64,000 nucleotides of DNA from Candidatus Bathyarchaeota archaeon (GTDB taxonomy: Archaea > Thermoproteota > Bathyarchaeia > TCS64), in NCBI GenBank assembly GCA_016783455.1, contig JADHWN010000005.1:1-64000 (forward strand). The letters are read 5' to 3'. Positions 1 through 18,348 of the stretch are shown here, one piece after another (position 1 is the first letter of the stretch; the number at the start of each line of letters is the position of its first letter). The position numbers were made by a program, and so were the translations under genes. The notes under the pieces are model-generated. The model had not been told where the DNA came from. It saw only the letters and a list, made by a program, of their open reading frames with translations, and did not search any database.

Positions 1-195
1 GTGTTTAGCTCAGATTAAAATAAGCGAGATTTATTTATATTCTATCTAGTTTTTGCTAAATAAATCATGAAAATGTTAAAATAAGCACTGTTTAGAATTT
101 AATTTGACTTATATGCGTAACGAGCTAAACACGTACTAAGATTTAAACCTTCGATGTATGATTAGGACAGAGACAAGGGTCGAGTCGGTATTGGA
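1..195. other. AT-rich intergenic start of window
   Basis: This stretch is AT-rich and contains no ORF or RNA gene that I can support. It lies upstream of a small membrane-protein gene and may hold its promoter, but no single TATA element stands out. Confidence 0.4.
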
Positions 196-573: not shown

Positions 574-586
574 ACTGATTTAATAT

Positions 587-2556: not shown

Positions 2557-2557
2557 A

Positions 2558-4060: not shown

Positions 4061-4069
4061 TTTATCCCC

Positions 4070-5038
4070 TCAATATTGGATCCTCGGATCAATGTATCCG
4101 TAGACGACGTCTACAATCAAGTTGCAGACTATGGTGACCAATGCGAAGATATAGAACAACGCTTGAAGCACCGGGTAGTCGGTGAATTGAATTGCGGACC
4201 AAGTGTAAAGCCCTAAACCTCGCCAGGAAAACACTGTTTCCGTCAGTATCGCGCCGTTTAAAAGACCTGGGATCTGAAGAGCGATATTTGTAACGAGAGG
4301 CAACATCGCGTTGCGGAAAGCGTGTTTGAAGAGCACGCCTCTCTCAGACACTCCTTTTGCCCTGGCCGTTGTGATGTAATCCTCGTGAAGGGCCTCAAGC
4401 AATGTGCTCCTCATCATGAGCAGCCAAGCCCCGTACTGGAAGAGGAACAGGGTCAGGCCGGGAAGAAAGAGGTGCCAGGCGAGATCGAATATCCTCACAA
4501 TGGGGTCTAATGGCGGCGGCCTAGACATGGTTCCCGCAAGAGGAAATAGGCCGAATACATATCCCCCGACATAAATCATGAGTAATCCCATCCAGAAGGT
4601 CGGAAGGGCATAACTGAAGAGTGAGATCGAGACCGAGGTTAGATCGAATAGACTCCCGCGTTTGTACGCCGCATAGATTCCGAAGACCGTACCAAAGGTG
4701 ATGGCGAAGAAGAGGGAGACGCCCATCAGGAGCAGGGTGTTGGGGAGCCTCTCCATGATCTCTCTACCCACTGGTTCCAAGGAGTTATAGGAGTAGCCAA
4801 AGTCCCATGTCAATGTAGATTTCAGGTAGCGCACGTATTGTACGTGTAGTGGCTCCTGGAGTCCCCATAGCTCTATCAGGCGCTCGACTTGCTCGGGCTC
4901 AAGCCTCATGCCGCTGGCCACAATCTGGATTGGGTTGCCAGGCGCCATCCTGAAGATAATGAAGTTCAGCGTAAGGGCGAAAAATAGGAGGACGAAGCTA
5001 TAGAGTATCCTCTTCAGTATGTATCTTTTCAGTGACAT
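4070..5038 (-). CDS. dppB: peptide ABC transporter permease DppB
   Basis: This 322-residue permease shows the DppB/OppB architecture. It has an N-terminal membrane helix (YILKRILYSFVLLFFALTL), an external loop with FRMAPGNP, five further helices and the cytoplasmic coupling loop (TTARAKGVSERGVLFKHAFRNA). It would form the channel together with DppC. It lies nine bases upstream of dppC in the same operon and downstream of the solute-binding protein gene. Confidence 0.95.
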   Translation of the reverse strand: MSLKRYILKRILYSFVLLFFALTLNFIIFRMAPGNPIQIVASGMRLEPEQVERLIELWGLQEPLHVQYVRYLKSTLTWDFGYSYNSLEPVGREIMERLPNTLLLMGVSLFFAITFGTVFGIYAAYKRGSLFDLTSVSISLFSYALPTFWMGLLMIYVGGYVFGLFPLAGTMSRPPPLDPIVRIFDLAWHLFLPGLTLFLFQYGAWLLMMRSTLLEALHEDYITTARAKGVSERGVLFKHAFRNAMLPLVTNIALQIPGLLNGAILTETVFSWRGLGLYTWSAIQFTDYPVLQALFYIFALVTIVCNLIVDVVYGYIDPRIQY

Positions 5039-5084
5039 CGGTTACGCCTCTCTACCCATCTCTAATTAGACCTTTTTTAACTTG

Positions 5085-5128
5085 GTGATCCGAGAAAAAT
5101 ATAAAAAATAAAGGGTTGGATTATGGGT
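5085..5128 (-). promoter_or_regulatory. AT-rich terminator/promoter region between SBP gene and dppB
   Basis: Read on the minus strand, a T-rich tract follows the solute-binding protein stop, with a TATA-like run at about 5095-5110. It could end a separate SBP transcript, start dppB transcription roughly 25 bases further on, or both. This would allow the binding protein to be made in excess, as is common for such operons. The sequence alone cannot separate the possibilities. Confidence 0.35.
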
Positions 5129-7222
5129 TTATGATTCTCTTCTGGACATGAAGATTGCGATAGCGCCTACGAGTATGGCGATACCTATTGAGGCGTATCC
5201 TAGGTTTGAAGCGCTGCTGAGTCCAGCCTGCAGATTTGACGTCTGTGTTTCAATTCCCGAGATGTCGGAGGTGAGGGATACGATCTCTGCGTCCAAGGTT
5301 CCGATGTTAGCGTCCAAGGCTTCGATGTTATCGGCCAAGTCGCCGATGCTATCGACGCTTGAACCAATCAGCTCTAGGGCACTGGCCTGGAAGTCGGTGA
5401 ACTGCGAACTGAGCTCGCTGATGGACTCTGCCTGCACCTCGACAGCCAGATTAGCCGCCGCAAGCTGAGCCCGGAGCATACTTAGCGATTTTGCCTGCCC
5501 GATCTCAGCCATGGAGAGACCCTGGTAGAAGCGGTCAGGGAACTTCCAGTAGTCCTCGTTTGCCACAAGGTGGACGTACTCACCCGCTACATAGTCGACG
5601 AACTTCCAGGGTCCAAGACCGATCAGTTCGCCTTCTGCTACGGGGTCGTAGTCCTGCCAGTCGTCTCCGACGTCCTCCCATATGTGTTTGGGAAGGACGG
5701 GTATGTTGATGTAGTGGAATGCGAAGTAGCTAGTGGTATCCTGATAAACCTCGAGGGTGTAGTCATCGACGAGGACGACATCCTCTATGAATTGGGTAGA
5801 TGATGCATACCTAGGTATGCCCTGTTCCATGATGTAGTTGTATGTGAATTCCATGTCTTCAGCCGTGAAGGGAACGTCATCGTGCCAGATCGCGTCTTCG
5901 ACGAAGTGGAATGTTATCTTGATTCCGTCGACGCCAGTGGGGCTAACCCAGTCTTCGATCTCCCAGGACTCGGCCAGCCATCCCCAGTCATCGGCCAGGT
6001 CATATGGGTTATTTGTGTATGGAGATTCGTAGATCTTGTCGAGAACCTCCCAAGTGTATGTCCATGCCGCAGTCATCACGTTTAAGGTCTCAATGTCCGA
6101 CTTTATCCCGTATTCGATTCTGCCACCATAGTCTTGAGCCGCGGGGTGCATGTTGTATGTGCTCCACCAGCTGTTGATGCCAGTTCCAACCGCGTTTACC
6201 AGGTCCGTCCACTCGACCCTGTAGGCTTTGACTCCGATGTGGCCGTACATGGGTATGCCGGGGACCTGCTCAGCGATTATCTCCTGACACATGAAAGCAG
6301 CTTCCTTAGTGTCTTCGAAGGTGCTGGCGGTCTTCAGGAGGTCTGCCCAGTAGTCGAATGTGCTGTTGACGAAGCCCGGATAGTTGTAGCCACGCCATCC
6401 GCCTATGCATTCAGGGTCGAACTCCTTGCTGTGGTAGAAGTCAGCGAGGTGGTCGGGGTCTCTACCGAGTCCCCATCCGCCAGTGTAGACGTTCCACTCT
6501 CCGGCCGGGGTGTCCATAACTGCATTTGAGCAGACGGACCTCTCGACGGCCAGCTCACCCTCAATGGGCACGCCCAAGGCTTTTAACTCCGCGGCCAGCC
6601 ACTCGCCAGCCTGCTTCCGCTCAGGGTCGTCTATTCGGATGAAGAAGAGTACGTCCGCCATATTATCACCGGTTATGGGATCGTTCCTGATGCCGTCGGC
6701 GTCTGTGTCCGTGAAACCGCCGAGGTCCAACTCGGCTGCAGCCAACGCGGCGCTGTACTCATATGTCCTGATGTCCGGATTGGCCCAGCCACCAAGGACG
6801 ACGGGTACGGGGCTGTCCAGCGCATATCCGAATCCCTGCAGGATGTCTGTCTCGATCCGAGCCTTATCGACAAGGTGAGCGAGAGCCCTTCTGAAGTGGA
6901 CATCGCTAGTAGGCCAGCGTTGGCAGTTGATATCTATCAAGTAGTAACCGAGGTCAGCAGTGCTATCAGTCACGATGTTCGGGTCGGCCAGAGCGTCGGC
7001 AACCTTCTCGGCTGGGAGCTCCCAGTCCATGAGGTTGATATCACCCGTCTTCAAGGCGAGGTACTCCACTTCAGGATTCAGATAGATCTTGAAGAACAGC
7101 TCATCCGCCCAGGGACCGGTCAATTCAACCTCGTCTTCGGCCATCACTGGCAAGATTGGTAGGAAAAGAGTAATTAGTATTAAAAGTCCGATTGTCTTCT
7201 CTACTTTACTACGTTTAATCAT
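5129..7222 (-). CDS. dppA: peptide ABC transporter solute-binding protein, C-terminal coiled coil and membrane anchor
   Basis: This 697-residue family 5 (SBP_bac_5) extracellular solute-binding protein captures peptides for the adjacent DppBCDF. It has an N-terminal signal segment (residues about 10-28, LLILITLFLPILPVMA) and a typical two-lobe body, including the region DAIWHDDVPFTAEDMEFTY. After the body comes a helical stretch (about 595-670) rich in Asn/Asp/Ser/Leu with coiled-coil character, then a C-terminal membrane helix near 675-692 followed by SRRES. It would be held to the membrane by its C-terminus on a stalk rather than by an N-terminal lipid. This arrangement is common in archaea. 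The ATG start lies just after a good TATA element in the intergenic region. Confidence 0.93.
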   Translation of the reverse strand: MIKRSKVEKTIGLLILITLFLPILPVMAEDEVELTGPWADELFFKIYLNPEVEYLALKTGDINLMDWELPAEKVADALADPNIVTDSTADLGYYLIDINCQRWPTSDVHFRRALAHLVDKARIETDILQGFGYALDSPVPVVLGGWANPDIRTYEYSAALAAAELDLGGFTDTDADGIRNDPITGDNMADVLFFIRIDDPERKQAGEWLAAELKALGVPIEGELAVERSVCSNAVMDTPAGEWNVYTGGWGLGRDPDHLADFYHSKEFDPECIGGWRGYNYPGFVNSTFDYWADLLKTASTFEDTKEAAFMCQEIIAEQVPGIPMYGHIGVKAYRVEWTDLVNAVGTGINSWWSTYNMHPAAQDYGGRIEYGIKSDIETLNVMTAAWTYTWEVLDKIYESPYTNNPYDLADDWGWLAESWEIEDWVSPTGVDGIKITFHFVEDAIWHDDVPFTAEDMEFTYNYIMEQGIPRYASSTQFIEDVVLVDDYTLEVYQDTTSYFAFHYINIPVLPKHIWEDVGDDWQDYDPVAEGELIGLGPWKFVDYVAGEYVHLVANEDYWKFPDRFYQGLSMAEIGQAKSLSMLRAQLAAANLAVEVQAESISELSSQFTDFQASALELIGSSVDSIGDLADNIEALDANIGTLDAEIVSLTSDISGIETQTSNLQAGLSSASNLGYASIGIAILVGAIAIFMSRRES

Positions 7223-7374
7223 GTTTATCCGGTACTAACATGAAGTAGAGATATAAAAAAGGTATTACGCACGCCCTCCATGACTGGATAACTGGGAACA
7301 ACACATGCGCGCGGTAAACTTCGGAAAAAAGCCTTATATCGTCTCGTAGACGCCTGAGAGGATAACCCTGAGGG
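7223..7374. promoter_or_regulatory. divergent promoter region between SBP gene and MFS gene
   Basis: On the minus strand a TATA-like element (plus-strand 7249-7261, a run containing GATATAAAAAA) lies about 30 bases upstream of the SBP start, implying a very short leader. On the plus strand CCTTATATC at about 7332-7340 is positioned as a TATA box for the MFS gene. Both assignments rest on spacing and composition. Confidence 0.5.
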
Positions 7375-8673
7375 ATGTGCCAGTTCATGATAGAGTCGCT
7401 GCGGCAGAGACTTGAGTTCATGAACGGCAACATGCGCATCCTTACCGCGACCCAGGTCCTGGGGATGTTCTTCAGGAATATGGTCCTACCATACGTCAGC
7501 CTCTTCATACTAGCGGTCGGAGGGGAGCCGGCCCAGGTGGGCATCATAAACAGCCTCCGCCCCCTTGCGGGGCTGCTCATATTCCCCATCTCTGGGTACC
7601 TGACGGACCGCACGGGTCGGGTGAAGCTCATCGCCCTGGCAAACTATCTCACTGCCCTGACAATGCTGCTCTACGTCTTCGCGCCGAGCTGGGAGTGGAT
7701 CGCCGTGGGCGCACTGCTGCAGGGATTTATGGTCTTCCAGTTCCCTCCGACATCGGCTATCCTTGCCGACAGCTTGGACCCTAGAAACAGGGGGGTGGGC
7801 ATCGCCACGATGAACACCCTCGCCAACGGCGTCGCCATGTTCAGCCCGTACATCGCAGGGATAGTCCTCATGCTCCTCGGGAACAACAACGGCATGAGGG
7901 TACTGTACGGGTTTCTGGCGCTCTCCTCCATTGTCAACGCTACCCTCATACTCCGATACCTGAAGGAGACGGTCGAGATCGAGAAGACTGAGGCCAAGTT
8001 CAATGTATTAACGGTATTGAAAGAAGCCTATACAGGGATACCCGAACTACTGGGTAACCTGCCGAGGAGCGTGAAGGCGCTTGGATTTGTCGTAGGATTG
8101 GGCTTCGTGGCGAATGGGATCTTGAGCCCGTACTGGGTGGTCTACGTTACCGCTGAGGTCGGGCTCGCGAACATTGAATGGGGGCTGATCCTCCTGTTTG
8201 AGTCCATTTTCAAGACGGTCCTCACCATCCCATGCGGGATGTTGGCCGACAGGTACGGCAGGTCTAAGACGCTGATGGTTGCGATGTTCCTATCAGTCTT
8301 CTCTCTGCCCAGCCTGATCTTCGCTAGAACATTCACCCATGTCCTGCTGGTCCGCCTTGGTGCGGGGCTCGTCGGAGCCCTGTTCTTCCCCTCCAGTGCG
8401 GCTTTGATGGCTGACCTCGTTCCACGGGAGTTGAGGGGTAGAGTCATGTCCGCGATAGGACGTGGCAGCGTCCTGATCGGGGCTACGGGCGGTGGGACTG
8501 GAGGTCCCGGGATGGGCTACCTGTTCACGATACCCGTGATGGCAGCGTCGATAGTCGGGGGTGTCCTGTACTCGATGAACGTGAGCTACCCCTGGGTCTG
8601 CCTCCTCGGGATATCCATAGTTCAGCTGCTGTGCGTTATCCTGTTCATCCGCGACCCTAAGAAGGCTGAATAG
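7375..8673 (+). CDS. MFS transporter
   Basis: This 432-residue major facilitator protein has about 12 membrane helices and two copies of the family's loop motif: GYLTDRTGRVKL between TM2 and TM3, and GMLADRYGRSKT in the second half. Proline-rich segments and a long central loop (about residues 200-225) separate the halves. The substrate cannot be read from the sequence. It shares its general layout and phrases such as FAPSWEW with the MFS genes at 12602 and 34585, which look like paralogues. A nearby in-frame ATG at 7387 is an alternative start. Confidence 0.9.
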   Translation: MCQFMIESLRQRLEFMNGNMRILTATQVLGMFFRNMVLPYVSLFILAVGGEPAQVGIINSLRPLAGLLIFPISGYLTDRTGRVKLIALANYLTALTMLLYVFAPSWEWIAVGALLQGFMVFQFPPTSAILADSLDPRNRGVGIATMNTLANGVAMFSPYIAGIVLMLLGNNNGMRVLYGFLALSSIVNATLILRYLKETVEIEKTEAKFNVLTVLKEAYTGIPELLGNLPRSVKALGFVVGLGFVANGILSPYWVVYVTAEVGLANIEWGLILLFESIFKTVLTIPCGMLADRYGRSKTLMVAMFLSVFSLPSLIFARTFTHVLLVRLGAGLVGALFFPSSAALMADLVPRELRGRVMSAIGRGSVLIGATGGGTGGPGMGYLFTIPVMAASIVGGVLYSMNVSYPWVCLLGISIVQLLCVILFIRDPKKAE

Positions 8674-8737
8674 CAATCGGAGAACGACTTCAGGGCTAAG
8701 CTCAGGCTGGATGAATAATACCGGGTCGAGCAGTCTC

Positions 8738-8747
8738 CCTTTTTTTG
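8738..8747 (+). terminator. T-run terminator after MFS gene
   Basis: A pyrimidine run ending in seven T residues about 65 bases after the MFS stop is a plausible archaeal T-rich terminator. No strong hairpin precedes it. Confidence 0.35.
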
Positions 8748-8865
8748 AGTGAGGGATCTGGTGGCAGAAGGGCATCCCCGCGGCCTTGAACGCCAACGCA
8801 AGATATTAAAAATAAATGGTTCACCCTAGTCTGTGAGAGAGAATATCTCATAGGTCGTAAGAATA

Positions 8866-9843
8866 TTGGATGAGAGATACACCGCGGCGATAATTCAGTT
8901 CATGAGGGTCAACCCCGAGGAGATACCCGACGTCGTTAAGCGTAGGGAGGAGAACCTCAAGAAGGCGCTGGCGACCTTCAAGACCCTGGAGACCTGGGAT
9001 CAGATAATCCCCGTCAGGCTCACCGTCCTCCCCGAGAACATCCTGAGGCACGAGTTCGATACCCAGGACCCCAGCCAGACCCAGGCGGACCGGGTGGCGT
9101 CAGCGGTGACCATCCCCGGGTCGGAGACCGATCAGCTGGCGGAGATGGCCAAGAAGTACGGGACGTATATCTCGGCGTCCATCCATGAGAGGGACCCTGA
9201 GCACCCGGACTACTTCTTCAACACGGCGTTCATCATGAATCCCAAGGGGAGGATCATCCTGAAGTTCAGGAAGATCAACCCCTGGATCCCTCTGGAACTC
9301 TCCACGAGCCCCCACGACGTCCTCGACGACTACAAGGCCCCACTGTTCCCCGTGGTGGAGACGGAGCTGGGGAACCTGGCGTGCATGGTCTGCTACGACC
9401 AGTTCTTCCCCGAGGTGGCCCGGCAGCTCGCGTTCAACGGCGCGGAGGTCATCATCAAGCCCACGATATTCCCTCCCTACCCTGAGCAGTTCATGTTCGA
9501 CCCCTACGACTGGTACACCATCGTGAACAAGATGCGGTCCATCGAGAACATGCTGTACGGGGTCAACTGCAACGGCGCCAAGTACGGGCACAGCATGATA
9601 GTGGACTACCTGGGGAGGACGATAGCCCTCGCGGCTAGGGGGAGGCAGATGACCATCGGGGCCACCATCGACATAGGTGAGCTGAGGGAGTACCGGAACA
9701 AGACGAAGCTCCACAACATGCTACAGCAGGTGAGGGCCGAGTGCTACACGTACCTCAACGGTAAGATGTGGCCCGCCAACAAGCCCCTGCTCAGAGAGGA
9801 AGACTACGCTGAATGGGCGCCTAAACCTCCGTTCTATAAATAA
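8866..9843 (+). CDS. nitrilase-superfamily carbon-nitrogen hydrolase
   Basis: This 325-residue protein has the catalytic triad of the carbon-nitrogen hydrolase superfamily in the right order: Glu57 (LPEN), Lys136 (FRKINPW) and Cys176 (MVCYDQFFPE). Members hydrolyse nitriles, amides or carbamoyl groups in the cytoplasm. The extended C-terminal part (residues 270-325) and the long insertion around Lys136 resemble the aliphatic amidase/formamidase-like branch, but the substrate is not determined. The start is a TTG at 8866, giving the sequence MDERYTAAII that begins the first beta strand. The structured repeat element at 9858 follows the stop directly. Confidence 0.88.
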   Translation: MDERYTAAIIQFMRVNPEEIPDVVKRREENLKKALATFKTLETWDQIIPVRLTVLPENILRHEFDTQDPSQTQADRVASAVTIPGSETDQLAEMAKKYGTYISASIHERDPEHPDYFFNTAFIMNPKGRIILKFRKINPWIPLELSTSPHDVLDDYKAPLFPVVETELGNLACMVCYDQFFPEVARQLAFNGAEVIIKPTIFPPYPEQFMFDPYDWYTIVNKMRSIENMLYGVNCNGAKYGHSMIVDYLGRTIALAARGRQMTIGATIDIGELREYRNKTKLHNMLQQVRAECYTYLNGKMWPANKPLLREEDYAEWAPKPPFYK

Positions 9844-9857
9844 ATCACTTTTAATCG

Positions 9858-9945
9858 AATGGAGCCCCGGGCGGGCTTCTAACTTTACTTAGAAAGCCCT
9901 TAGGTCATTCATAGATAGGGATTAAATTTAATCCCCCCCACACAA
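9858..9945. repeat. R2a: tRNA-3'-end-derived structured repeat, copy 1
   Basis: This roughly 88-base element is repeated at 13903-13989. It begins with AATGGAGCCCCGGGCGGG, identical to the plus-strand image of the tRNA-Thr 3' end at 15372-15389, then diverges from the tRNA. It continues into a stem GGGCTT...AAGCCC and a perfect palindrome at 9918-9935 (GGGATTAAATTTAATCCC). The 3' side is a CA repeat. It looks like a remnant attachment site or a small tRNA-derived mobile or structured element. Confidence 0.75.
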
Positions 9946-10007
9946 TGATGCTAACTAGGTGAAGTGAATCAGAAAAGCGCGTGCGCCTTAGATATTATCA
10001 CTCCTTT

Positions 10008-10424
10008 TTAGGAGAGTTTCTTGAAGAAAACATGTAAATTCTCTATATCCTCTCTGCTGACTTTGAACTCATGGCCGTATGGACATAAGCCATGAATAAC
10101 GAATTTCCCACATTTTTCATTATATACCAGTGGATAAAGCCGGCATCCTTCGGGTCTGAAAGAGTATATTTTACAGCCGTTGTCTCCGAGAAAAACGCAT
10201 ACACCATTACGGTTTTTCAAACGACGCTCTCTTTTACGTTTCACGACGAAATCTTTGAACCTGTATCCCTGCCGGGAGATTCTCTCTATATCAATACGCG
10301 AGAGAGGCATACGGGTCTCTATGCAACATTTGACACAGTTGTGAACCGTGCATGGAATGCCACTGCTCAAGAGGTGTTTCTTAGTTTCATTATTATTTTT
10401 TGAATCGAATTCTTTGCATTCCAA
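10008..10424 (-). CDS. YkgJ-family CxxCxxCC putative metal-chelating protein
   Basis: This 138-residue protein has the Cys-rich pattern of the YkgJ/UPF0153 family: an N-terminal CTVHNCVKCC, then CVFLGDNGCKIYSFRPEGCRLYP and a final GLCPYG. Such proteins are thought to bind zinc or an iron-sulfur cluster, but their reaction is not known. The gene is AT-rich compared with the flanking nitrilase and MFS genes and lies inside the tRNA-bounded accessory region, so it may have been acquired horizontally. Confidence 0.8.
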   Translation of the reverse strand: MECKEFDSKNNNETKKHLLSSGIPCTVHNCVKCCIETRMPLSRIDIERISRQGYRFKDFVVKRKRERRLKNRNGVCVFLGDNGCKIYSFRPEGCRLYPLVYNEKCGKFVIHGLCPYGHEFKVSREDIENLHVFFKKLS

Positions 10425-10685
10425 GAGAAATGTCTCCTCAAACGTCTATCCTTTTAATCCCCTATAGAGTATCCGGGATCCTTGGACCGCGCGAAGGATA
10501 AAGCATCTTTTACTTAGTAATTAGAGGCCTCAATAATTTAGCGCGCGCCGTCCGTTCGTACACCCGTCGTCGTGTGTGTGGGGGATAAAATTTAGCCCCT
10601 CCGAGAATTGGGAATCAGGGGAGAAGGGCATTACAGATGTTCTGGCTGAGGTTAATGTCGAATTGAGAAGAGGGATAGGCGTGAA
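10425..10685. other. intergenic region with inverted partial R2 palindrome
   Basis: No gene is supported here. At 10571-10600 a GT repeat followed by an imperfect palindrome (10582-10598, GGGATAAAATTTAGCCC) matches the distal half of the R2 repeats in inverted orientation. This makes it a third, partial and degraded copy of the element. Confidence 0.5.
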
Positions 10686-11333
10686 CTATCCTTCTTCAGA
10701 TAATTCCATTAGTTGTTTTCTAATACCCTTAGAAGAAAATTCAGTGTTGGGGCGGCCAGGTATCCGAATTACATGATAGTCATTTATCGAAAAGGTCGTT
10801 TTCCTAAGAGCCGATTTGAAAATTTTTTGGTGCCAGCTTGTCGGAAGAATGAGAATTTTTTTACTGTATTTTTCATGATACTTCGATATCCATGAGGACA
10901 ATCTATCAACAAAAATATCTCTAGATTCTCGGGCTAGAGGATTGGATAATTTCCCAATATAGAACTTGTATCGGTTATAGTCATAACTGTGAACAGGATA
11001 CTCGTCACTGTAACAATAAGGCACAATAACCATAGGCTCAGAAACAACAAATAAATCGATTTGTTTAAGGATTGGTAGAAGCGCTCTCAAGTATCCCTTT
11101 TTGTGACTAGGTGAATATGGGTAGGGCTTGCTAGCAGAACTAGGAAGAAAAACAGCTGTATCATATCTCGGTTGCCATTTCATTGCCCTTCCTTGGTAAA
11201 AATCAATGACGTCCTTATGATTCCATATTTCGACCCCGTCTTCAAAGCTATTAACCGTCAACTCTGCTGATGGCCTTCTTTTTTCTTTAAGGTCGTTCTC
11301 TATAATTGAAATGATATTATCTACTGAGAGCAT
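10686..11333 (-). CDS. DUF5591-like (archaeosine synthase core-like) protein
   Basis: This 215-residue protein contains the sequence FLPSSASKPYPYSPSHKK followed by SEPMVIVPY and YDYNRYKFYIGKLS. It resembles the DUF5591 domain of archaeosine synthase ArcS, where a PCSxxKPYxxSxSH motif and a PxElxxxYPxxxYD motif are typical. ArcS acts on preQ0-modified tRNA at position 15. Here only this domain is present: no PUA domain and no TGT-like catalytic domain. The Cys of the usual PCS motif is Ser in PSSA. It may be a stand-alone relative with a changed role. It is AT-rich and sits in the accessory region. Confidence 0.65.
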   Translation of the reverse strand: MLSVDNIISIIENDLKEKRRPSAELTVNSFEDGVEIWNHKDVIDFYQGRAMKWQPRYDTAVFLPSSASKPYPYSPSHKKGYLRALLPILKQIDLFVVSEPMVIVPYCYSDEYPVHSYDYNRYKFYIGKLSNPLARESRDIFVDRLSSWISKYHEKYSKKILILPTSWHQKIFKSALRKTTFSINDYHVIRIPGRPNTEFSSKGIRKQLMELSEEG

Positions 11334-11624
11334 TAGTATCTAAGGTAAATATCTAAACCAATTATAAAAATTTGACATTAAGTGATCGCGCGAGTGAAAC
11401 GGATGTCTAATATAGTTTACGTTATTCGCTGTGACGTTCTTAGCTATATTAGCTTAATATCGAAACCTTACTTTACGCCATTCGCGGGGCACTTTGGGTT
11501 TTTTGTGTTCTGGGATATGTTACATGATATATACCTTACACATTTTCCGTTATTGTCGGTCTGGTAGTTAGTTAGCACTCCACATTTTTTACTCAAAATT
11601 TCTTTCCCTCCCTTCATGAATCTG
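11334..11624. other. AT-rich intergenic stretch
   Basis: This roughly 290-base AT-rich stretch separates two minus-strand genes of the accessory region. A 61-codon plus-strand frame exists but has no ribosome-binding site and no recognisable similarity. I see no RNA gene. It should contain the promoter of the gene at 10686-11333. Confidence 0.4.
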
Positions 11625-12086
11625 CTATGATGTTATAAAGTCGCGGGCATGAGGAGTAATTCCGTATTTTCCACAGCCGCGATTTATGATTTTATTTCTC
11701 GTTAAAATCTTTCTAACATTCCTAGATAGTTTACTGATCTCTTTGCTCTCATCTTTTGATCCCATCACCTTCTTGAGTTCATGTTTATGGAAATGAATCA
11801 TGTTCTGAAACATCTTTTCATCAATGGTCATGCCCGTCATTCCATAGAATCGGTTGTCCCGTTTTTGTGCAGACACCTGTTTGTTAGCCTTGATCAGTTC
11901 CTTTTTCTTCTGGTACATCTGCTTAAGTTCTAGGTCTCTTTCGTGCTGCATCTTTCGTATGTCACTACTTATAATCCACTTGTTAACTCCAAGTTGTGAT
12001 GCAATCTCCGAGTAGGATAGATCCTTACCTATCCCTTCAAGGATCGTGAAACGGCGGCTCTCTCGATCTTCATATACATTTAACAA
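11625..12086 (-). CDS. helix-turn-helix DNA-binding protein of unknown role
   Basis: This 153-residue basic protein has an N-terminal helix-turn-helix (about residues 20-48: LSYSEIASQLGVNKWIISSD). A Lys/Gln/Glu-rich helical middle and a C-terminal winged-helix-like part ending ITPHARDFITS follow. The HTH suggests DNA binding, either as a regulator of the island or as a remnant recombination or partition factor. The family is not recognised. Codon use is AT-rich like the two genes beside it, in contrast to the GC-rich genome around the region. Confidence 0.6.
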   Translation of the reverse strand: MLNVYEDRESRRFTILEGIGKDLSYSEIASQLGVNKWIISSDIRKMQHERDLELKQMYQKKKELIKANKQVSAQKRDNRFYGMTGMTIDEKMFQNMIHFHKHELKKVMGSKDESKEISKLSRNVRKILTRNKIINRGCGKYGITPHARDFITS

Positions 12087-12190
12087 TCTCTTTTTTCAAC
12101 TCTCGTTGCCTAGTTAAACCTCGCCTATGCTCGGTTATCCAAGAATCAACATATTACGATGTGATTGGCTGCTTATAAGCAAGCTTATTG
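12087..12190. other. intergenic sequence before R1a
   Basis: This short AT-rich region contains no supported gene. It carries the presumed promoter of the divergent HTH gene and ends at the R1a repeat boundary. Confidence 0.3.
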
Positions 12191-12320
12191 CGCGCGAGAG
12201 AGTTCCAATCTTGTACTGTAGTCATGGGTGTCGATGGGGGTCATCACTGTTTTTCAATTCACAATTGATAGAAAGGGCAATTTTTCTTAAGGTGTGGAGC
12301 CCCGGGCGGGATTTGAATCC
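12191..12320. repeat. R1a: direct repeat containing tRNA-Thr 3' end fragment (att-like)
   Basis: This roughly 130-base segment matches 15271-15399 in the same orientation. Both run from a CGCGCG-rich start through TACTGTAGTCATGG, TTCAATTCA and ATTGATAGAAA to TGGAGCCCCGGGCGGGATTTGAA. The last 26 bases (12295-12320) duplicate the 3' end of the tRNA-Thr gene, including T-arm and acceptor. The remainder duplicates the sequence just downstream of that gene. Such a copy is what remains at the far end of an element integrated at a tRNA gene. Confidence 0.85.
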
Positions 12321-12601
12321 GATTAAAGGCTTTGAATTTAATTCGCATACTGCTTGTGGAGGATACGTTTTCTTCTTAATTGACGTCCTGAATTCGAATA
12401 TCAGATGTTTATGGTGATGGGCGATGAGGACGTGGGGGCCGTCAGGAAATGGATCGGTATCCTGGAGCACTGGCATTAACAGGAAATTTGCTCTGACGAT
12501 GCCGAGATACGGCTCGTGGGATTAGATGGGTACAGCGTGTTCCATGATAAATAATATAAGCTACGTAACAGCCTACTACCGATTTCATGGTGGTGATATG
12601 A
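12321..12601. other. intergenic region upstream of MFS gene
   Basis: This 280-base stretch follows the tRNA fragment. Near its end it carries an AT-rich segment (about 12545-12560, containing ATAATATAAG) and a GGTGAT ribosome-binding site for the MFS gene. No ORF or RNA gene is supported. Confidence 0.4.
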
Positions 12602-13858
12602 TTGGGGCTTAGGGGTAACCTTTCGGAATACTATTCCATGTTCAGGGAGGTCTTCAGCAACAAGAACATAATAGCGATCTCCATCACCACCTCCCTCTGG
12701 AGCCTGATAGGGATGGGCTATCGCCCCTTCTGGGCCCTCTACCTGCAGGATCACCTGGGGGCCTCGGTCGTGAATATCGGCATCTTCTCGATGATCTCAA
12801 CGGCTGAAAGCCTCATATTCCAGCTGCCGGGGGGGTTGTTGGCCGACAGGTATGGGAGGAGGAAACTGATTATCTTCGGCTCGTTCCTGAGGACCCTGGG
12901 GCCGATCATCTACTTTTTGGCTCCAAGCTGGGAGTGGGTGATCCCCGGTGCGATAGCGAGCGGCATGACGAGCCTGTACATGCCGGCCTTCACCGCGATA
13001 GTTGCGGAGTCCCTGCCCAGCAAGAGGAGGGGCTCCGGCTACGGGGTCTACAACACGATCACCCGCATTCCGAACATCGTTTCTCCTCTCATAGGCGGGA
13101 TCTTGATGGATACATACGGGCTCTACAGGGGCGTCAGGATGTTCCTCCTGGTGCAGATCGGCGTCTCCATCTTCACGGTCATCGTCAGGTACTTCACGAT
13201 AGAGGAGACGATGGTCCACAAGCCCGGTAAGAGGCCTCCCATCATTCCCACGGCTGAGACCTTCAGGGAGCTGCCCCGACCCATATTCATAATGATGATA
13301 GTTTCAATCATCGGGAGCTTCTCGGGGAGGCTCGTGATGGACTACACCAACCTCTACGCCCTTGACATCCTCAAGATAACCGCGACCCAGCTCGGTGTCA
13401 TCAGCTCAGTCGCCGGCCTAGTGCAGACGGTCCTGACGCTTCCCAGCGGGATGCTCTCTGACAAGTACGGGCGCAAGAACAACATCATGGTCTCAAGGGT
13501 CATCTCGCCCGTCACCCAGTACTTCATGGCGGCCGTCACGGGATACTACCCGTACATGCTTGTTCGGTCCTTCAACGCAATTGGGCTGGCCTTCGGGGGC
13601 GGCGGCGTTCGGGCAGGGGGATCCGCTTGGAATGCTTTGATCGCCGATATCGTCCCCTCTCGGAAGAGGGCTACCGTTAACGGCGTGATAGGCACCCTCA
13701 CAGCTGTCGTTGCTGCGCCGTCCTCTGTTCTCGGTGGTTGGCTTTGGGAGACGTTCAATCCGCAGTTGCCCTTCCAGCTCTCGGCGGTCATCGGTTTGGT
13801 TGCCGCTGCGGTCTTCTGGTTGGGCGTCCATGAACCGGAGAAGCCGCTTGAAGAATGA
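12602..13858 (+). CDS. MFS transporter
   Basis: This 418-residue major facilitator transporter has about 12 membrane helices and two loop motifs (GLLADRYGRRKL and GMLSDKYGRKNN). It is clearly related to the broken MFS gene at 34585-35852: both have an N-terminal NKN/NRN..AIS segment, a QLPGG sequence before the first loop motif and GFGGGGVRAGGSAWNAL/GGPAWQAL near the end. The frame opens at a TTG (12602), four bases after GGTGAT, which fits the start codon use in this window. It is GC-rich like the core genome but lies between tRNA-derived repeats. Confidence 0.9.
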   Translation: MGLRGNLSEYYSMFREVFSNKNIIAISITTSLWSLIGMGYRPFWALYLQDHLGASVVNIGIFSMISTAESLIFQLPGGLLADRYGRRKLIIFGSFLRTLGPIIYFLAPSWEWVIPGAIASGMTSLYMPAFTAIVAESLPSKRRGSGYGVYNTITRIPNIVSPLIGGILMDTYGLYRGVRMFLLVQIGVSIFTVIVRYFTIEETMVHKPGKRPPIIPTAETFRELPRPIFIMMIVSIIGSFSGRLVMDYTNLYALDILKITATQLGVISSVAGLVQTVLTLPSGMLSDKYGRKNNIMVSRVISPVTQYFMAAVTGYYPYMLVRSFNAIGLAFGGGGVRAGGSAWNALIADIVPSRKRATVNGVIGTLTAVVAAPSSVLGGWLWETFNPQLPFQLSAVIGLVAAAVFWLGVHEPEKPLEE

Positions 13859-13899
13859 CCTATGGGATATCCATGTGTGTAAGGTGCCTCTCTTCCTCG

Positions 13900-13989
13900 T
13901 AGAATGGAGCCCCGAGCGGGCTTCAAACCTTACGTGAAAAGCCCTTAGGTCGTGCATAAATAGGGATAAAATTTATCCCCTACACACAA
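13900..13989. repeat. R2b: tRNA-3'-end-derived structured repeat, copy 2
   Basis: This is the second copy of the element at 9858-9945, in the same orientation and about as far after a stop codon (the MFS gene ends at 13858). It has GAATGGAGCCCCGAGCGGG, the GGGCTT...AAGCCC stem, CCCTTAGGTC and a perfect palindrome at 13963-13979 (GGGATAAAATTTATCCC). The palindrome is one base shorter than in R2a but still symmetrical. A CACACA tract follows. Confidence 0.75.
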
Positions 13990-14144
13990 AAATACACACA
14001 CGTAAACCATTTTTATCAGTCTGTGCCAAAAAAGAGTTAGAATATAATGAAATATAATACTCCATACGCGTACAGAGCTCGAGCGCTTGCTCAAAAGTGT
14101 ATTATTATCTACATATGCCCAGATCATATATAGCGGTAGAAAAG

Positions 14145-15263
14145 TTGAAGATCACTGACATCAAGACCATAGCCCTCAAGATACCTTTGAAAGAGGGATC
14201 GCCTGTCTCCGCTTACCCTAACAGGAGAAGAGTGCACTTAATCGTTGAGGTCTCCACAGATGAGGGTATAACAGGATATGGGGAGTCTATCCCATTTACC
14301 TATGGCTCTGTAGGTGGTTACATCGAGCAGCAGTTGAAGCCCCTGCTAGTGGGGGAGAACCCGATGCACGTGGAAAGACTCTGGGACAAGGCCTACAGGG
14401 TGAGCTTTGGCCACGGCATCAGAGGCATCTCGTTGAATGCATTGAGTGCCGTTGAGGTCGCCCTCTGGGATATAATCGGAAAGGCCAGGAAGCTACCCGT
14501 CTACGAGATGATTGGCGGTCTCTGCCGAGACAAGATCAAGGCCTACGCGAGTCTAATGGAGTACCGTAAACCCGAGGAAGTGGGAAAGATTTCAGTCCAA
14601 TGGGTGGAGAAGGGATACAAAGCGGTAAAGATCCATCAGGGAAGGAGCGACGCGGTAGAGTCTACAAAAGCAGTAAGAGACGCCGTCGGCGATGACGTGG
14701 AGATCATGCTCGATGTGAATGGTGCATGGACGCCCATCGAGGCAATTAAACACGCCAAGACCCTTGAAAGATACGATCTTACTTGGCTGGAGGAGCCCAT
14801 CTGGCCCGTGGATGATTATGCTAGCTTGGCGAGGCTTCGGGAGAAAACCAGTATACCCATTGCTGGCGGTGAGAACGAGCATACTCACCATGGATTTAGG
14901 AATTTGATTACCCAGAACGCGGTAGACATCGTCCAGCCAGATGTTATTATGACGGGGGGTATCTCCGTTTGTAGGAAGATATTCGCCCTCGCAGAGGCTT
15001 GGAACCTTGGCATAGCCACACACAGCTTCTTTTTCGGGCCCGGGGTTCCAGCATCGGTACATCTGAGCCTGAGCAACATGAAGAGTGAGTGGGTGGAGAT
15101 TAACGCAGTTCCGTTGGAGGCTTTCTTTATCACACCTGCATATAGACCCATCAATGGGTATGTCACGGCTCCTAACAAACCAGGGCTAGGCTTCGAGATA
15201 GATTGGGATATCGTAGAGAGATACGCCGTTAAGGAGTCTCCGACGGGCTCCCTCTATTATTAA
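14145..15263 (+). CDS. enolase-superfamily (mandelate racemase/muconate lactonizing-like) enzyme
   Basis: This protein of about 372 residues has the N-terminal capping domain and barrel of the mandelate racemase branch. Metal ligands are visible as Asp in MLDVNG, Glu in WLEEP and Glu in AGGEN. The first catalytic site reads VKIHQG, so the usual KxK is KxH, and a late His lies in IATHSFFFGPG. Together these fit an acid-sugar dehydratase or related enzyme; the substrate is unknown. The frame extends to a GTG at 14097 and an ATG at 14115. Family members begin right at the KITDI strand, which favours the TTG at 14145. It lies between R2b and R1b, directly before the tRNA. Confidence 0.8.
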   Translation: MKITDIKTIALKIPLKEGSPVSAYPNRRRVHLIVEVSTDEGITGYGESIPFTYGSVGGYIEQQLKPLLVGENPMHVERLWDKAYRVSFGHGIRGISLNALSAVEVALWDIIGKARKLPVYEMIGGLCRDKIKAYASLMEYRKPEEVGKISVQWVEKGYKAVKIHQGRSDAVESTKAVRDAVGDDVEIMLDVNGAWTPIEAIKHAKTLERYDLTWLEEPIWPVDDYASLARLREKTSIPIAGGENEHTHHGFRNLITQNAVDIVQPDVIMTGGISVCRKIFALAEAWNLGIATHSFFFGPGVPASVHLSLSNMKSEWVEINAVPLEAFFITPAYRPINGYVTAPNKPGLGFEIDWDIVERYAVKESPTGSLYY

Positions 15264-15270
15264 ACTAAAC

Positions 15271-15399
15271 GCGCGCGCGAGTTACAATCTCGTACTGTAG
15301 TCATGGATGTCGATGGGCTTCATCAATGATCTTCAATTCACCATTGATAGAAAAGGCTATTATACACATGGAATGGAGCCCCGGGCGGGATTTGAACCC
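15271..15399. repeat. R1b: direct repeat ending in the intact tRNA-Thr 3' end
   Basis: This is the right-hand partner of R1a (12191-12320). Its final 26 bases are the genuine 3' end of the tRNA-Thr gene. The 3.1-kb unit between the copies contains the MFS gene, R2b and the enolase-superfamily gene. Confidence 0.85.
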
Positions 15400-15471
15400 G
15401 CGATCTCCTCCTCTTTGGCCCCCCAAGGGAGATACCAAGGAGACGCTTTAGCCAGTCTAAGCCACCAGGGC
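15374..15471 (-). tRNA. trnT: tRNA-Thr(GGT) with 20-base intron, CCA encoded
   Basis: Read on the minus strand, the acceptor GCCCTGG pairs with CCGGGGC, followed by discriminator T and an encoded CCA. The D-arm is GCTT/AAGC, the anticodon stem TCTCC/GGAGG, the variable loop AGATC and the T-arm GCGGG/CCCGC with loop TTCAAAT. The mature anticodon loop is TTGGTAA with anticodon GGT (plus-strand 15434-15436). A 20-base intron (plus-strand 15413-15432) lies at position 37/38. The junction forms a textbook bulge-helix-bulge: a 4-bp helix TTGG/CCAA between bulges TAT and AGA, each cut after its second base. Discriminator U and G1-C72/C2-G71 agree with archaeal threonine identity. Confidence 0.95.
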
Positions 15472-15498: not shown

Positions 15499-15511
15499 AT
15501 TAAAATTTTAC
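15499..15511 (-). promoter_or_regulatory. TATA-like box for tRNA-Thr
   Basis: On the minus strand an AT-rich box (plus-strand TAAAATTTTA) lies about 30 bases before the tRNA 5' end, as expected for an archaeal tRNA promoter. Confidence 0.5.
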
Positions 15512-15770
15512 CATGAGCCCACACAGCGGACAACAAGACAAACCAAAGGAAAGGAAAAGATGCAACCCTCGAAGATGCCATAGAAAAAAACCCATAAAAG
15601 AAAACGTATATTTTCGACTCATTTACGAGGAAAAGCCCTTTTTAGAGTTCGAATATTGACGGGACCTACACCACCCACCAACATATGCGCCTTTACCCGA
15701 AAGTAATGTCCGATAATATGGAATATGCTTATATACCTCGAAATTACATCCTTCATTAGACTGATTCAAG
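15512..15770. other. intergenic region; promoter of small protein at its end
   Basis: No gene is supported between the tRNA and the small ORF. A TATA-like element GCTTATATAC at 15727-15736 lies about 35 bases upstream of the ATG at 15771, implying a short leader for that gene. Confidence 0.5.
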
Positions 15771-16016
15771 ATGTCGAGGACAGGCAGAAGACGAGCGGAC
15801 ATCGAGGACCTGATACGGGTGACCACCAAGGCGGCCTCCCGTAAAGGCAAGCAGATCAGGACCGTGGACCCTCTCGTCATCTGCGCCAACAGGATGTACC
15901 CCTACCTCCCCGAGGCCACCATCTGGGAGTACGCCCGCACAGCCCTCAAGATAATCACCAACGGCACACCTAACCCCCCAGCAGCCCAGACCACCCTCCT
16001 CACCCACCTAGCCTAA
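15771..16016 (+). CDS. small hypothetical basic protein
   Basis: This 81-residue protein begins MSRTGRRRADIEDLIRV. It has a basic N-terminus, a central helix-forming region (about residues 12-62) and a flexible Pro/Thr-rich tail. I recognise no family. A well-placed TATA box upstream of the ATG and codon-like third-base composition favour a real gene. It lies alone between the tRNA and endonuclease IV. Confidence 0.5.
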   Translation: MSRTGRRRADIEDLIRVTTKAASRKGKQIRTVDPLVICANRMYPYLPEATIWEYARTALKIITNGTPNPPAAQTTLLTHLA

Positions 16017-16384
16017 ACCTCCACCCAGGAAAAAGCGGAGAAGCCACCCATCCCACAACCAGAACCCGCCGAACACCGCAAGCAACACGAACCCAACCCC
16101 ACCCAGCACATCCCACCGACAACCCCCGTACCCCCACAAGGGGGGGAGGGGGGGTCATACCATCCAACCCCGGAAAACACCCCGACCGACGCCTGCAACC
16201 GCGGAAACGCTCCGACCCCCTCCGGTTCATACCAAAAGGAGCACCCATTCACACCAAAAACACCCCTCAACGAAACAGTGAACCCCACACCCCCGACCCC
16301 AACCACCTCACACCGAAAAGACAACACCCAGGACGCTTATCCCCTGCCAGCCACACGCGAAAAACGCTTATCATACCCTACCAT
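16017..16384. other. C-rich, G-poor non-coding stretch with G-run
   Basis: This 368-base region is strongly skewed: its plus strand is rich in C and A with little T and G, apart from one block at about 16132-16155. There CCCCC is followed by two runs of seven G separated by A (16141-16155). The block can fold as a C/G hairpin or contribute to a G-quadruplex. Frames on the minus strand run through it but are low-complexity Gly/Val/Cys and look like shadows. It follows the stop of endonuclease IV and may be its 3' region. Confidence 0.45.
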
Positions 16385-17245
16385 TCACAGGCCCACGAGA
16401 CCCCTCACCACGCCCAGATCCTCCCCCTCCCCCCGCCTCTCATCCAGAGGAGTCTCCAAGATCAACGGAAAACCCGCGAGACGGCTCCCAACTATAGCCC
16501 TGAACCCATCCAGCCCGATCTCCCCCAGACCGATATGCTCATGATGGTCCCGCCCCGAGCCCAGAGCCCCAACCGAGTCATTCAGATGGACCACAAAAAG
16601 CCTGTCAAAACCCACCGAGGAATCGAAGGCATCCAGAGTCTCCCCCAACCTCTCAGGGGTCCTCAAGTCGTAACCGGCGACGAACGCGTGACACGTATCC
16701 AGGCAGACACCCACCCTCCCGGGACGCCCCACACCATCGAGGATCCGCCCAAGCTCCTCGAATCTGGACCCCACGCCATTAACCGACCCAGCACCATTCT
16801 CAAGGAGGACGACGACATCGGAGCCATCATCCCCTAGCACACGGTCGAGGGCCCCGACAACCCGCCTCACACCAGCCTCCGCCCCGGATCCCAGATGGCT
16901 GCCGAGATGGGTCACCAGGAACCGGATCCCGAGCACGGAGCACCTCTCAAGCCCCACAGCCAGGGACCCCACGGACCTCCCATAGACCCCATCCTGGGGA
17001 GAGGCCAGATTCAGGATGTAGGGCATATGCCCCACAACGGGGTCGAGGCCAGCCTCGGCCCGCTTCGCCTTGAACGCAGTCACCTCCTCATCGGTCAGCA
17101 GCCTCGACCTCCAGCTCCGTGGATTACGCGTGAAAATCTGAAAAGTATCGCACCCAAGCTCGACAGCCCTGTCCACAGCCCTGTCCACGCCCCCCGAAAT
17201 GGAGACATGATAGCCCAACCTCAGCCGCGCCAACCCGGAGATCAC
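16385..17245 (-). CDS. nfo: endonuclease IV (AP endonuclease, Nfo family)
   Basis: This 286-residue TIM-barrel zinc enzyme cuts DNA 5' to abasic sites in base-excision repair. Motifs in order are LGYHVSISGG, NPRSW, HMPYILNLASP, VTHLGSHLG, LENGAGS, VCLDTCHAFVAGYDL, VVHLNDS, GSGRDHHEHIGLG and the final LILETP. These supply the His, Glu and Asp ligands of the three zinc sites. Length matches the family. The frame starts at a GTG (17245); TTG codons four and eight residues further in are alternatives, closer to the usual start at the LGYH strand. The coding sequence is unusually G-rich on its own strand. Confidence 0.93.
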   Translation of the reverse strand: MISGLARLRLGYHVSISGGVDRAVDRAVELGCDTFQIFTRNPRSWRSRLLTDEEVTAFKAKRAEAGLDPVVGHMPYILNLASPQDGVYGRSVGSLAVGLERCSVLGIRFLVTHLGSHLGSGAEAGVRRVVGALDRVLGDDGSDVVVLLENGAGSVNGVGSRFEELGRILDGVGRPGRVGVCLDTCHAFVAGYDLRTPERLGETLDAFDSSVGFDRLFVVHLNDSVGALGSGRDHHEHIGLGEIGLDGFRAIVGSRLAGFPLILETPLDERRGEGEDLGVVRGLVGL

Positions 17246-17354
17246 ATCCTATACACCGCCCTAAGGGATAAAATCAGTGCCACGGAGAATCCGAGAAGTG
17301 CAGCAAACATGTCAAAACTAATGGATTACTATCCTATCTCATTCTTCCATAATT

Positions 17355-17366
17355 CTCTTTATAGCA
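17355..17366 (+). promoter_or_regulatory. TATA box upstream of TrmB-like regulator
   Basis: CTCTTTATAGCA lies about 30-38 bases before the ATG at 17395, the spacing expected for an archaeal promoter with a very short leader. Confidence 0.5.
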
Positions 17367-17394
17367 ATCTCAAACCCTAGACCGGGACAGGTAC

Positions 17395-18348
17395 ATGCAG
17401 TTAGGTCATTTAGACAAGCTTGAGGTAGAGGAAGACACAGAAAACCTCGAGTCAGACATCGAGCTCCTCACGACACACACCCGCAACACAAGCAGGACCA
17501 GGGTGACCGAGGAGGACGCCGAGCATCTCAAGGCCCTCAGGCAGATAAAGAACGCACTCTCCAAGTTCGATCTCTCCAAGAACGAGGTAAGGGTCTACCT
17601 CTACCTCGCCAGATTCGGCGCCCAGAAGGCCCAGAGGATAGCCGAGGCCCTCAGCGTCCACAGGACAGAGGCCTACAAGATCCTCCGCCGCCTCGAGAAG
17701 CAGGGCCTCGTCTCATGCGTATTCGAGCGACCCATGAAGTTCGTCTCCATACCCTTCGACAAGGCCCTGGAGAACCTCATCGAGGAGCGACGCCAGAAGG
17801 TCCACCAGATGGAGCAGTGGAAGAAGCAGCTCATGGAGACCTGGCAGTCCCTCCCCAAACCCACGGCCAAGAAGACAAGACGAGAGACATTCCAAGTCCT
17901 GGAAGGTCGCAGGCAGGTAAGCGTCAAGGCCACACAGCTCCTCGACGGCTGCGAGAAGGACATCCTGATGGTCCTCTCCGACGAGAACCTCCTGTGGCTC
18001 TACAACTCCCCATACTTCGACGACCTGGAGAAGCTCGTCAACAAGAAGGGAGTGAACGTACGCCTCATGACCAACTACTCGCCCACCAGCACATACGTCC
18101 TCGAGGAGGTAAGCCTCGGCGAGGGAGACTTCAACTACAAGCAGCTCTCCGAAGCACCATGCTTCATCCTCATCGACAACGAGCAGATGCTTCTCCTCAT
18201 GGAGCGAGAGGAAGGGGCAGACGGCAAGCCATTCGCCATCTGGACCAACTACAACACGCTGCTCAAGTCGTACACTATGCTATTCGAGATGATCTGGAAG
18301 GAGCCCCAGGACATATCCGTCATGGCGGACGCTCCACCCGTATCCTGA
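17395..18348 (+). CDS. TrmB-family-like transcriptional regulator
   Basis: This 317-residue protein has a winged helix at about residues 55-120. It contains LSKNEVRVYLYLARFGAQKA and ALSVHRTEAYKILRRLEKQG, the TrmB-type HTH that often reads sugar or membrane state. A coiled helix (about 125-150) leads into a phospholipase-D-like/TrmB C-terminal effector domain (about 160-300). It is transcribed in the same direction as, and lies 270 bases upstream of, the pilus operon, which makes control of surface structures a reasonable guess. The effector is unknown. Confidence 0.82.
   Translation: MQLGHLDKLEVEEDTENLESDIELLTTHTRNTSRTRVTEEDAEHLKALRQIKNALSKFDLSKNEVRVYLYLARFGAQKAQRIAEALSVHRTEAYKILRRLEKQGLVSCVFERPMKFVSIPFDKALENLIEERRQKVHQMEQWKKQLMETWQSLPKPTAKKTRRETFQVLEGRRQVSVKATQLLDGCEKDILMVLSDENLLWLYNSPYFDDLEKLVNKKGVNVRLMTNYSPTSTYVLEEVSLGEGDFNYKQLSEAPCFILIDNEQMLLLMEREEGADGKPFAIWTNYNTLLKSYTMLFEMIWKEPQDISVMADAPPVS

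Follow-up and report, generated by a model that had tools for sequence, protein, structure and literature searches.

Bathyarchaeia are mostly known from metagenome-assembled genomes (MAGs), and how they gain genes is little understood. Passages of PMC10848311 describe them as abundant in sediments. In one bathyarchaeal genome, a tRNA-Thr(GGT) gene is followed by three partial copies of its own 3' end with unrelated genes between them, which raises the question of how these genes came to lie behind the tRNA. The window, that is, the whole stretch of 64,000 nucleotides that we analysed, is contig C76:1-64000 of genome G000 (2.19 Mb, 83 contigs, 75% complete). We consider it likely that positions 9860-15471 hold three small integrase-less cassettes, inserted successively at the 3' end of tRNA-Thr(GGT) by a recombinase acting in trans, and that they form one of at least ten such arrays.

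ARAGORN, run with introns allowed, located tRNA-Thr(GGT) at c15374-15471 with a 20-nt intron. The same program run without introns reported zero tRNA genes in the window, the gene being overlooked by a default search because of its intron. We defined the core as the last 26 nt of tRNA-Thr(GGT) and compared it with the window. Three tail copies were found, all on the same strand as the tRNA and all downstream of its 3' end, while the next-best site in the window reached 16/26. A 16-nt core had no mismatches at 9860, 12295 and 15374 and one at 13905; with up to three mismatches allowed on both strands of the window, it gave five matches against 1.53 expected from shuffles. The copies delimit three segments, two of which also carry flanking arms, named R1 and R2:

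15374-15471, minus strand: intact tRNA-Thr(GGT), the docking (attB-like) gene (ARAGORN -i; Rfam tRNA model at 15377-15471)
13905-13930, minus strand: tail copy, 21/26 in the 26-nt comparison, start of R2b
12295-12320, minus strand: tail copy, 25/26 in the 26-nt comparison, end of R1a
9860-9885, minus strand: tail copy, 21/26 in the 26-nt comparison, start of R2a
13905-15373, plus strand: segment 1, from the first tail copy to the tRNA end, 1469 bp, one gene, both arms
12295-13904, plus strand: segment 2, set by tail copies, 1610 bp, a single MFS gene, no R1 or R2 arm
9860-12294, minus strand: segment 3, set by tail copies, 2435 bp, GC 0.40, three AT-rich genes, both arms

We then aligned the arms. 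Together with the core, the R1 copies aligned over 131 nt at 84% (12191-12321 with 15270-15400) and the R2 copies over 79 nt at 85% (9857-9935 with 13902-13980). The R1 similarity ran about 104 nt beyond the tRNA end, and the R2 similarity about 50 nt on the opposite side of the core:

15270-15373, minus strand: R1b arm of segment 1, directly next to the 3' end of the tRNA, 84% alike with R1a and with the copy on contig C74
12191-12294, minus strand: R1a arm of segment 3, from the alignment with R1b
13931-13980, minus strand: R2b arm of segment 1, 85% to R2a, containing the palindrome GGGATAAAATTTATCCC
9886-9935, minus strand: R2a arm of segment 3, from the alignment with R2b

Read from the tRNA 3' end towards lower coordinates, the order is tail, R1, a mandelate-racemase-superfamily gene, R2, tail copy (13905), the MFS gene, tail copy (12295), R1, three AT-rich genes, R2, tail copy (9860) and a nitrilase flank. 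R1 and R2 are thus the opposite, dissimilar ends of a single kind of element, which occurs twice with a third, armless segment in between. The initial annotation had noticed partial tRNA-Thr tail copies in one orientation and a common R1 stretch of about 100 bases downstream of the tRNA, and both observations hold with the scores and the length given above. It had also described an A-B-A'-B' arrangement of two repeat families. The order and the alignments stand, but not the idea of two interleaved repeats, as the order arises because R1 and R2 are opposite ends of two complete elements around a third. Its suggestion of at least two integration or duplication events at one tRNA fits several site-specific insertions; that there are three segments, with the same pattern behind at least nine other tRNA loci, had not been foreseen. 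The R2 palindrome has a third, inverted copy (GGGATAAAATTTATCCC-like) at 10573-10598, between genes of the AT-rich segment 3, which could possibly be a site for a regulator or a recombinase.

Elsewhere in G000, the R1 arm occurs once, 84% alike, on contig C74 near tRNA-Thr(CGT). The array there consists of tRNA-Thr(CGT), a 2514-bp segment (an aldehyde ferredoxin oxidoreductase gene and two MoaD-like genes), a tail copy, a 1274-bp segment with a phytoene-synthase-like gene, and another tail copy. At one of the C74 tail copies, the core is flanked by the R1 arm and, opposite it, by a weakly R2-like stretch in the R2 position, an arrangement expected of a tandem junction. The R1 arm therefore adjoins three different cargos (sugar-acid-dehydratase-like, AT-rich and phytoene-synthase-like) behind two tRNA-Thr genes. 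R1-arm patterns gave no matches in collections of viral contigs and genome contigs, and in a search of 61 genomes with R1 plus core, arm matches were restricted to G000.

To assess tail copies beyond this locus, the last 26 nt of each tRNA gene were compared with the surrounding DNA, a copy being counted at 19/26 or better, and upstream DNA and the opposite strand served as controls. In G000, 38 tRNA genes were examined, namely 37 plus tRNA-Ser(GGA) added by hand; the hand-found tRNA-Ser genes of G000 and of its relative G017 were included before the genome-wide tally. The results showed 22 counts in 242 kb downstream, none in 335 kb upstream and none in 578 kb on the opposite strand. The counts reduce to 20 distinct tail copies at 10 loci because one site on C34 was counted for three tandem tRNA-Gln-like genes. 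The loci are Thr(GGT), Thr(CGT), Met, Gln (two loci), Ile, Lys, Ala(TGC), Leu(TAG) and Ser(GGA). With a looser count (18/26 or seen in an alignment), tRNA-Met (C16) and tRNA-Gln (C63) have seven boundaries each.

Each tail copy matches the tRNA directly upstream of it (Thr, Met, Gln, Ala, Ser, Lys, Leu or Ile) and not one common sequence. This argues against insertion-sequence-like transposons whose ends resemble a tRNA tail by chance, an explanation for which R1 and R2 would be suitable as reproducible, unlike ends. Moreover, the 38 scanned cassette proteins include zero transposases, and no inverted-repeat pair links both ends of a segment, so that we regard such transposons as highly improbable.

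The arrays contain up to seven segments. The 25 segments measured in G000 range from 460 to 3171 bp (median 1274 bp), with a GC of 0.29-0.64. Their borders are mostly intergenic: 2 of the 25 tail copies lie inside greedy open reading frames (ORFs) of at least 100 aa, compared with 60.8% of random positions drawn from the same arrays (P ~5e-8). The tRNA-Met tail copies include the sequence that interrupts the tRNA-Met gene, indicating copying at the DNA level and not from the mature tRNA. Tandem duplication of tRNA 3' ends and neighbouring DNA, by homologous recombination or replication slippage and with no mobile element involved, could also multiply tails, and the tRNA-Gln cluster on C34, with its tandem near-complete tRNA copies and common 5' flank, speaks in its favour. 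However, the DNA adjoining the copies differs from one to the next except at C34 and in the Thr arms, the copies begin inside the tRNA, the segments hold unrelated genes over the wide GC range given above, and the tRNA-Ala segment described below is absent from a congener. Duplication as the general explanation is thus very unlikely.

Two further observations concern DNA next to tRNA genes. In several genomes of the family, many tRNA 3' ends have next to them a G-rich repeat in which gctggcgggggataagggtt occurs, with sites downstream of tRNA genes on C70, C82, C2 and C34 (L070, L061, L066, L076) and at L086-L145; this repeat may be a terminator, encode a small RNA or be a short mobile repeat. 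In G000, seven tRNA genes (contigs C14, C59, C3, C58, C82, C2, C40) have a contig end within 2 kb downstream and three have one within 2 kb upstream, and assemblies may break at arrays.

We next considered what the segments carry. A Pfam scan of cassette proteins of G000 matched 28 of 38 to a family, many over nearly the full family length, and the cargo is not visibly decayed and looks intact. It includes AOR, phytoene-synthase-like proteins, metallo-beta-lactamase folds, ParE and two PIN toxins with VapB- and MazE-type antitoxins; an NTP-transferase/HEPN pair, SOUL, MsrA, heliorhodopsin, radical SAM and MFS proteins; and an amidohydrolase, a methyltransferase and an ABC ATPase. Among the 38 scanned proteins there was no integrase or recombinase, transposase, replication or virion protein. 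Remnants of elements were likewise not found in them, a search that small remnants could escape. PADLOC models matched some proteins of the Gln arrays, and PHROGs gave two matches among 10 cassette proteins, both of unknown function. A VapBC-bearing segment is present in both Gln arrays (76% over 685 bp). The heliorhodopsin gene lies in the cassette block of the tRNA-Met array (L073:13776-14600; NCBIfam HeR 336.6 bits, cut-off 100).

One cassette was found behind the same tRNA in two genera. An ABC-transporter cassette of 3171 bp in G000 and 3188 bp in G017 lies behind an intron-bearing tRNA-Ser(GGA) in both (L082:11015-11120 in G000; L117, tRNA near C1:756572, in G017). This tRNA is missed by the Rfam tRNA model and misread by ARAGORN. 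The cassette had seemed to sit at two different genes, tRNA-Ala in G000 and tRNA-Thr in G017, but both are tRNA-Ser(GGA), and the match at +878 in G017 is the tRNA-Ser(GGA) gene itself.

We compared G000 with its relatives, sampling six genomes of Bathyarchaeia for tail copies, G000 included: G002 is a congener, G017 and G013 belong to the same family, and G038 and G054 to other families of the same class. G017 shares 18,438 identical bases with CP070640.1, a Candidatus Bathyarchaeota chromosome. The tRNA genes examined were 35/35 in G002, 27/49 in G013, 13/20 plus one added by hand in G017, 25/32 in G038 and 24/30 in G054. Distinct tail copies numbered 4 at 3 loci in G002, 3 at 3 loci in G017 and 10 at 4 loci in G013, where up to four lie behind one tRNA. 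Controls were not entirely empty: G013 had three upstream counts, of which one belongs to a second tRNA-Met and two precede a tRNA-like gene at a contig end, and G002 had one upstream and one opposite-strand match at 19/26. In G038 and G054, no downstream copies were found behind 25 and 24 tRNA genes; each of these genomes gave a single upstream match and a single match on the opposite strand. Tail copies thus occur in 4/4 sampled genomes of this bathyarchaeal family and in 0/2 from other families.

An empty site was observed at tRNA-Ala(TGC). On C77 of G000, this gene is followed by a 1093-bp segment with one metallo-beta-lactamase-fold gene. The alignment of the flank begins at +1234 in G000 and at +142 in G002; the difference of 1092 compares with a tail copy at +1093, and the flank score is 53 past the tail copy and -58.5 from the tRNA side, the shuffled maximum being -31. 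By this alignment the one-gene segment reads as an insertion relative to G002. At tRNA-Met, G000 and G002 have the distal genes (SOUL-MsrA, methyltransferase) in common, but none of the segments closer to the tRNA; at tRNA-Gln, the upstream DNA and the distal flank are common to both, and no segment is. At loci without tail copies (e.g. tRNA-Gly, C73), the DNA directly downstream of the tRNA is syntenic between the two genomes. Behind tRNA-Asn, G000 has 5.5 kb of DNA that G002 lacks; this extra DNA showed no clear tail copy and was set aside. For tRNA-Thr(GGT) itself, the upstream genes are conserved in G002, and the 14.8 kb downstream hold nothing of window positions 1-15372.

Where, then, is the recombinase? 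A PF00589 search of the whole of G000 found four places, none on the window contig and none near arrays. In G013, an integrase gene lies directly behind tRNA-Leu (L126, G013:C24), and another lies beyond an array. The tRNA-Leu element continues with ribbon-helix, helicase/primase-like, ParB-methylase-like and topoisomerase-VI-like ORFs, names that were read from translations, and is a plausible full-size relative that could supply the enzyme.

These data bear on the main rival explanation, accretion followed by decay, in which large tRNA-targeting plasmids or proviruses inserted repeatedly and lost nearly everything, including the integrase, leaving graveyards like those of cis-mobilizable elements (CIMEs). 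Tandem integration and integrase loss are described for archaeal elements in parts of PMC8371274, and CIME formation plus accretion for bacteria in parts of PMC5704250. Arms that differ between most cassettes are as expected of unrelated integrases, and the G013 tRNA-Leu locus holds just such a larger, integrase-bearing element. Nevertheless, the 25 segments of 0.46-3.2 kb (median 1274 bp) have intact-looking single genes or small operons between their borders, 0/38 scanned proteins are integrase, replication or virion proteins, the recurrence of the R1 arm at three different cargos is hardly expected from independent decay, and tRNA-Ala(TGC) shows one exact one-gene insertion with no decay products. 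We therefore judge accretion and decay unlikely as the full account. The initial annotation had reported AT-rich genes at 10.0-12.1 kb in GC-rich surroundings, confirmed by a GC of 0.38-0.41 at 10-12 kb against 0.49-0.58, and no integrase nearby, in agreement with the PF00589 search. It had called the element decayed or mobilised in trans: mobilisation in trans fits better, decay agrees poorly with cargo that looks intact (28/38 with Pfam matches), and the helper enzyme was not found. The observation it had named as contrary, a relative with the same gene order but no tRNA fragments, was not encountered in G002 where the comparison could be made, the DNA downstream of tRNA-Thr being unlike and the tRNA-Ala flank lacking the segment.

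For the cassette arrays, we propose the following mechanism. A tRNA-tail core on a circular cassette would recombine with the tail of the intact tRNA gene; the cassette would restore a full tRNA 3' end, and a tail copy would remain at the far side. The next cassette would again enter at the tRNA and displace older ones outward, a growth direction suggested by one locus. The recombinase would act in trans and would most likely be a tyrosine integrase of a larger tRNA-targeting element. The anatomy, with the tRNA whole and a tail copy at the far side, matches conservative recombination at the 3' end of a tRNA gene. The units stand out by their size, their number and their cargo, and by carrying no enzyme. 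A dedicated, integron-like gene-capture system of archaea, in which a recombinase reading tRNA tails loads small circular cassettes (a gene or operon plus tail core) behind many tRNAs, is a bolder reading that we consider rather unlikely.

Several points weigh against the cassette model. The circular form is something that we infer. The R2-like arms at the C74 cassettes are weak and suggestive at most (P 0.02 to 0.19), and we did not accept them as firm matches. Strong arms are common to Thr cassettes only and none recurs strongly among Met or Gln cassettes, and thus the arms lend no support to one common recombination site. No helper recombinase was identified among the PF00589 genes of G000, G002 and G017: around the four such genes of G000 there is no tail copy of at least 21/26, and G002 and G017 are without a PF00589 gene at E<=1e-5 despite their tail copies, so their arrays may be at rest. 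Copy identity does not drop steadily with distance from the tRNA, and a steady decay was discarded as a pattern. At tRNA-Ala, the first 140 nt of the flank have diverged, so the junction was placed by offset rather than to the exact base. In another genus, relatives of the racemase-like gene have no tail copy within the surrounding 1-1.5 kb. Finally, the data are from a MAG, with the completeness given above.

The genes in and next to the tRNA-Thr(GGT) array are as follows:

14097-15263, plus strand: mandelate-racemase/enolase superfamily protein, nearest to sugar-acid dehydratases (Pfam MR_MLE_C 3.3e-62, MR_MLE_N 4.6e-18)
12602-13858, plus strand: MFS transporter (Pfam MFS_1 1.2e-48)
11625-12086, minus strand: helix-turn-helix protein (UPF0122 21.9 bits, slightly under the cut-off of 22.7)
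10686-11333, minus strand: DUF5591 protein, resembling part of archaeosine synthase (Pfam 2.2e-8; NCBIfam far below cut-off)
10008-10424, minus strand: CxxCxxCC zinc/iron-chelating domain protein (Pfam 5.4e-13)
8866-9843, plus strand: carbon-nitrogen hydrolase (nitrilase), the distal flank past the last tail copy (Pfam CN_hydrolase 7.2e-34)

The 14097-15263 protein scored 219.7 bits against the NCBIfam arabinonate dehydratase model, below its cut-off of 650. Relatives of this racemase-like gene were present in 4/27 genomes, G000 included, and those of the nitrilase in 10/27. Six loci of such relatives were inspected; five had no tail of 19/26 or better nearby, and the sixth had two tails of 19/26 within the gene or next to it. 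The array and the nitrilase gene are flanked by two MFS transporters (7375-8673 and 12602-13858) with an identity of about 28%, and only the latter sits between tail copies. A strong base skew was seen just upstream of tRNA-Thr(GGT), at 15500-17500 (GC skew -0.37 and AT skew 0.45 at 16-17 kb).

If the cassette reading is true, tRNA tails mark out which genes these genomes have acquired recently: array cargo could be listed, strains compared, and the enzyme traced through what recombines tRNA tails. It would also be an integron-like outcome from a different kind of site. Should the dedicated capture system be real, one genome would carry dozens of exchangeable cassettes with metabolic enzymes, transporters, toxin-antitoxin and defence genes. 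Even accretion and decay alone would mean that one archaeal family uses its tRNA genes unusually densely for insertion.

That elements insert at tRNA genes is established; the novelty lies in the cassette-array form. In the sources cited here, each represented by excerpts, tandem and integrase-less archaeal elements (PMC8371274, PMC6563490), tRNA fragments left behind by integration (PMC9897764) and archaeal integrons with attC sites (PMC9668308) are known. The open-licence literature searched, which leaves most subscription journals outside, yielded no account of small integrase-less cassettes arrayed genome-wide behind many tRNA genes. CIMEs and site-specific accretion (PMC5704250) resemble the arrays in lacking integration genes, in being att-bounded at a tRNA 3' end and in their tandem order. 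Here, too, the borders have attL-/attR-like flanks, as tail copies and, at two window segments, as R1/R2 arms, and no integration or transfer genes occur among the 38 scanned cassette proteins. CIMEs, however, are derivatives of integrative and conjugative or integrative and mobilizable elements in bacteria, whereas here 25 units of 0.46-3.2 kb with intact single-gene cargo lie behind about ten tRNA loci of one archaeal genome. Archaeal tRNA-integrated tyrosine-recombinase elements (PMC8371274, PMC6563490) likewise use the tRNA 3' end as attB, have a direct repeat at the far end, as the segments here do, and are known to insert in tandem. Most of them are larger (2.6-98 kb with a median of 17 kb for thaumarchaeal cryptic elements) and bring their own integrase, whereas none of the cassettes carries one.

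Integrons and clusters of attC sites lacking integron-integrases (CALINs), including those of Archaea (PMC9668308), share the arrays of small, mostly single-gene cassettes, often with no integrase nearby, and the toxin-antitoxin and metabolic cargo. Their cassettes enter at attI beside intI, whereas the segments here start at the 3' ends of many tRNA genes, whose tails serve as the repeated site; the excerpted text of that source mentions no tRNA. Tycheposons, as described in passages of PMC10872708, are also cargo islands bordered by tRNA genes, but are 4-200 kb long and have the tyrosine recombinase XerD, compared with 25 segments of 0.46-3.2 kb and no recombinase. A 1.9-kb insertion in Caldiarchaeum, as far as portions of PMC3293823 describe it, is similarly short, sits at tRNA-Thr(GGU), varies within an archaeal population and has a related copy beside tRNA-Thr(CGU). 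It differs in encoding a putative recombinase, in recurring as a single element, in leaving behind a 5' fragment and in having been seen at tRNA-Thr only.

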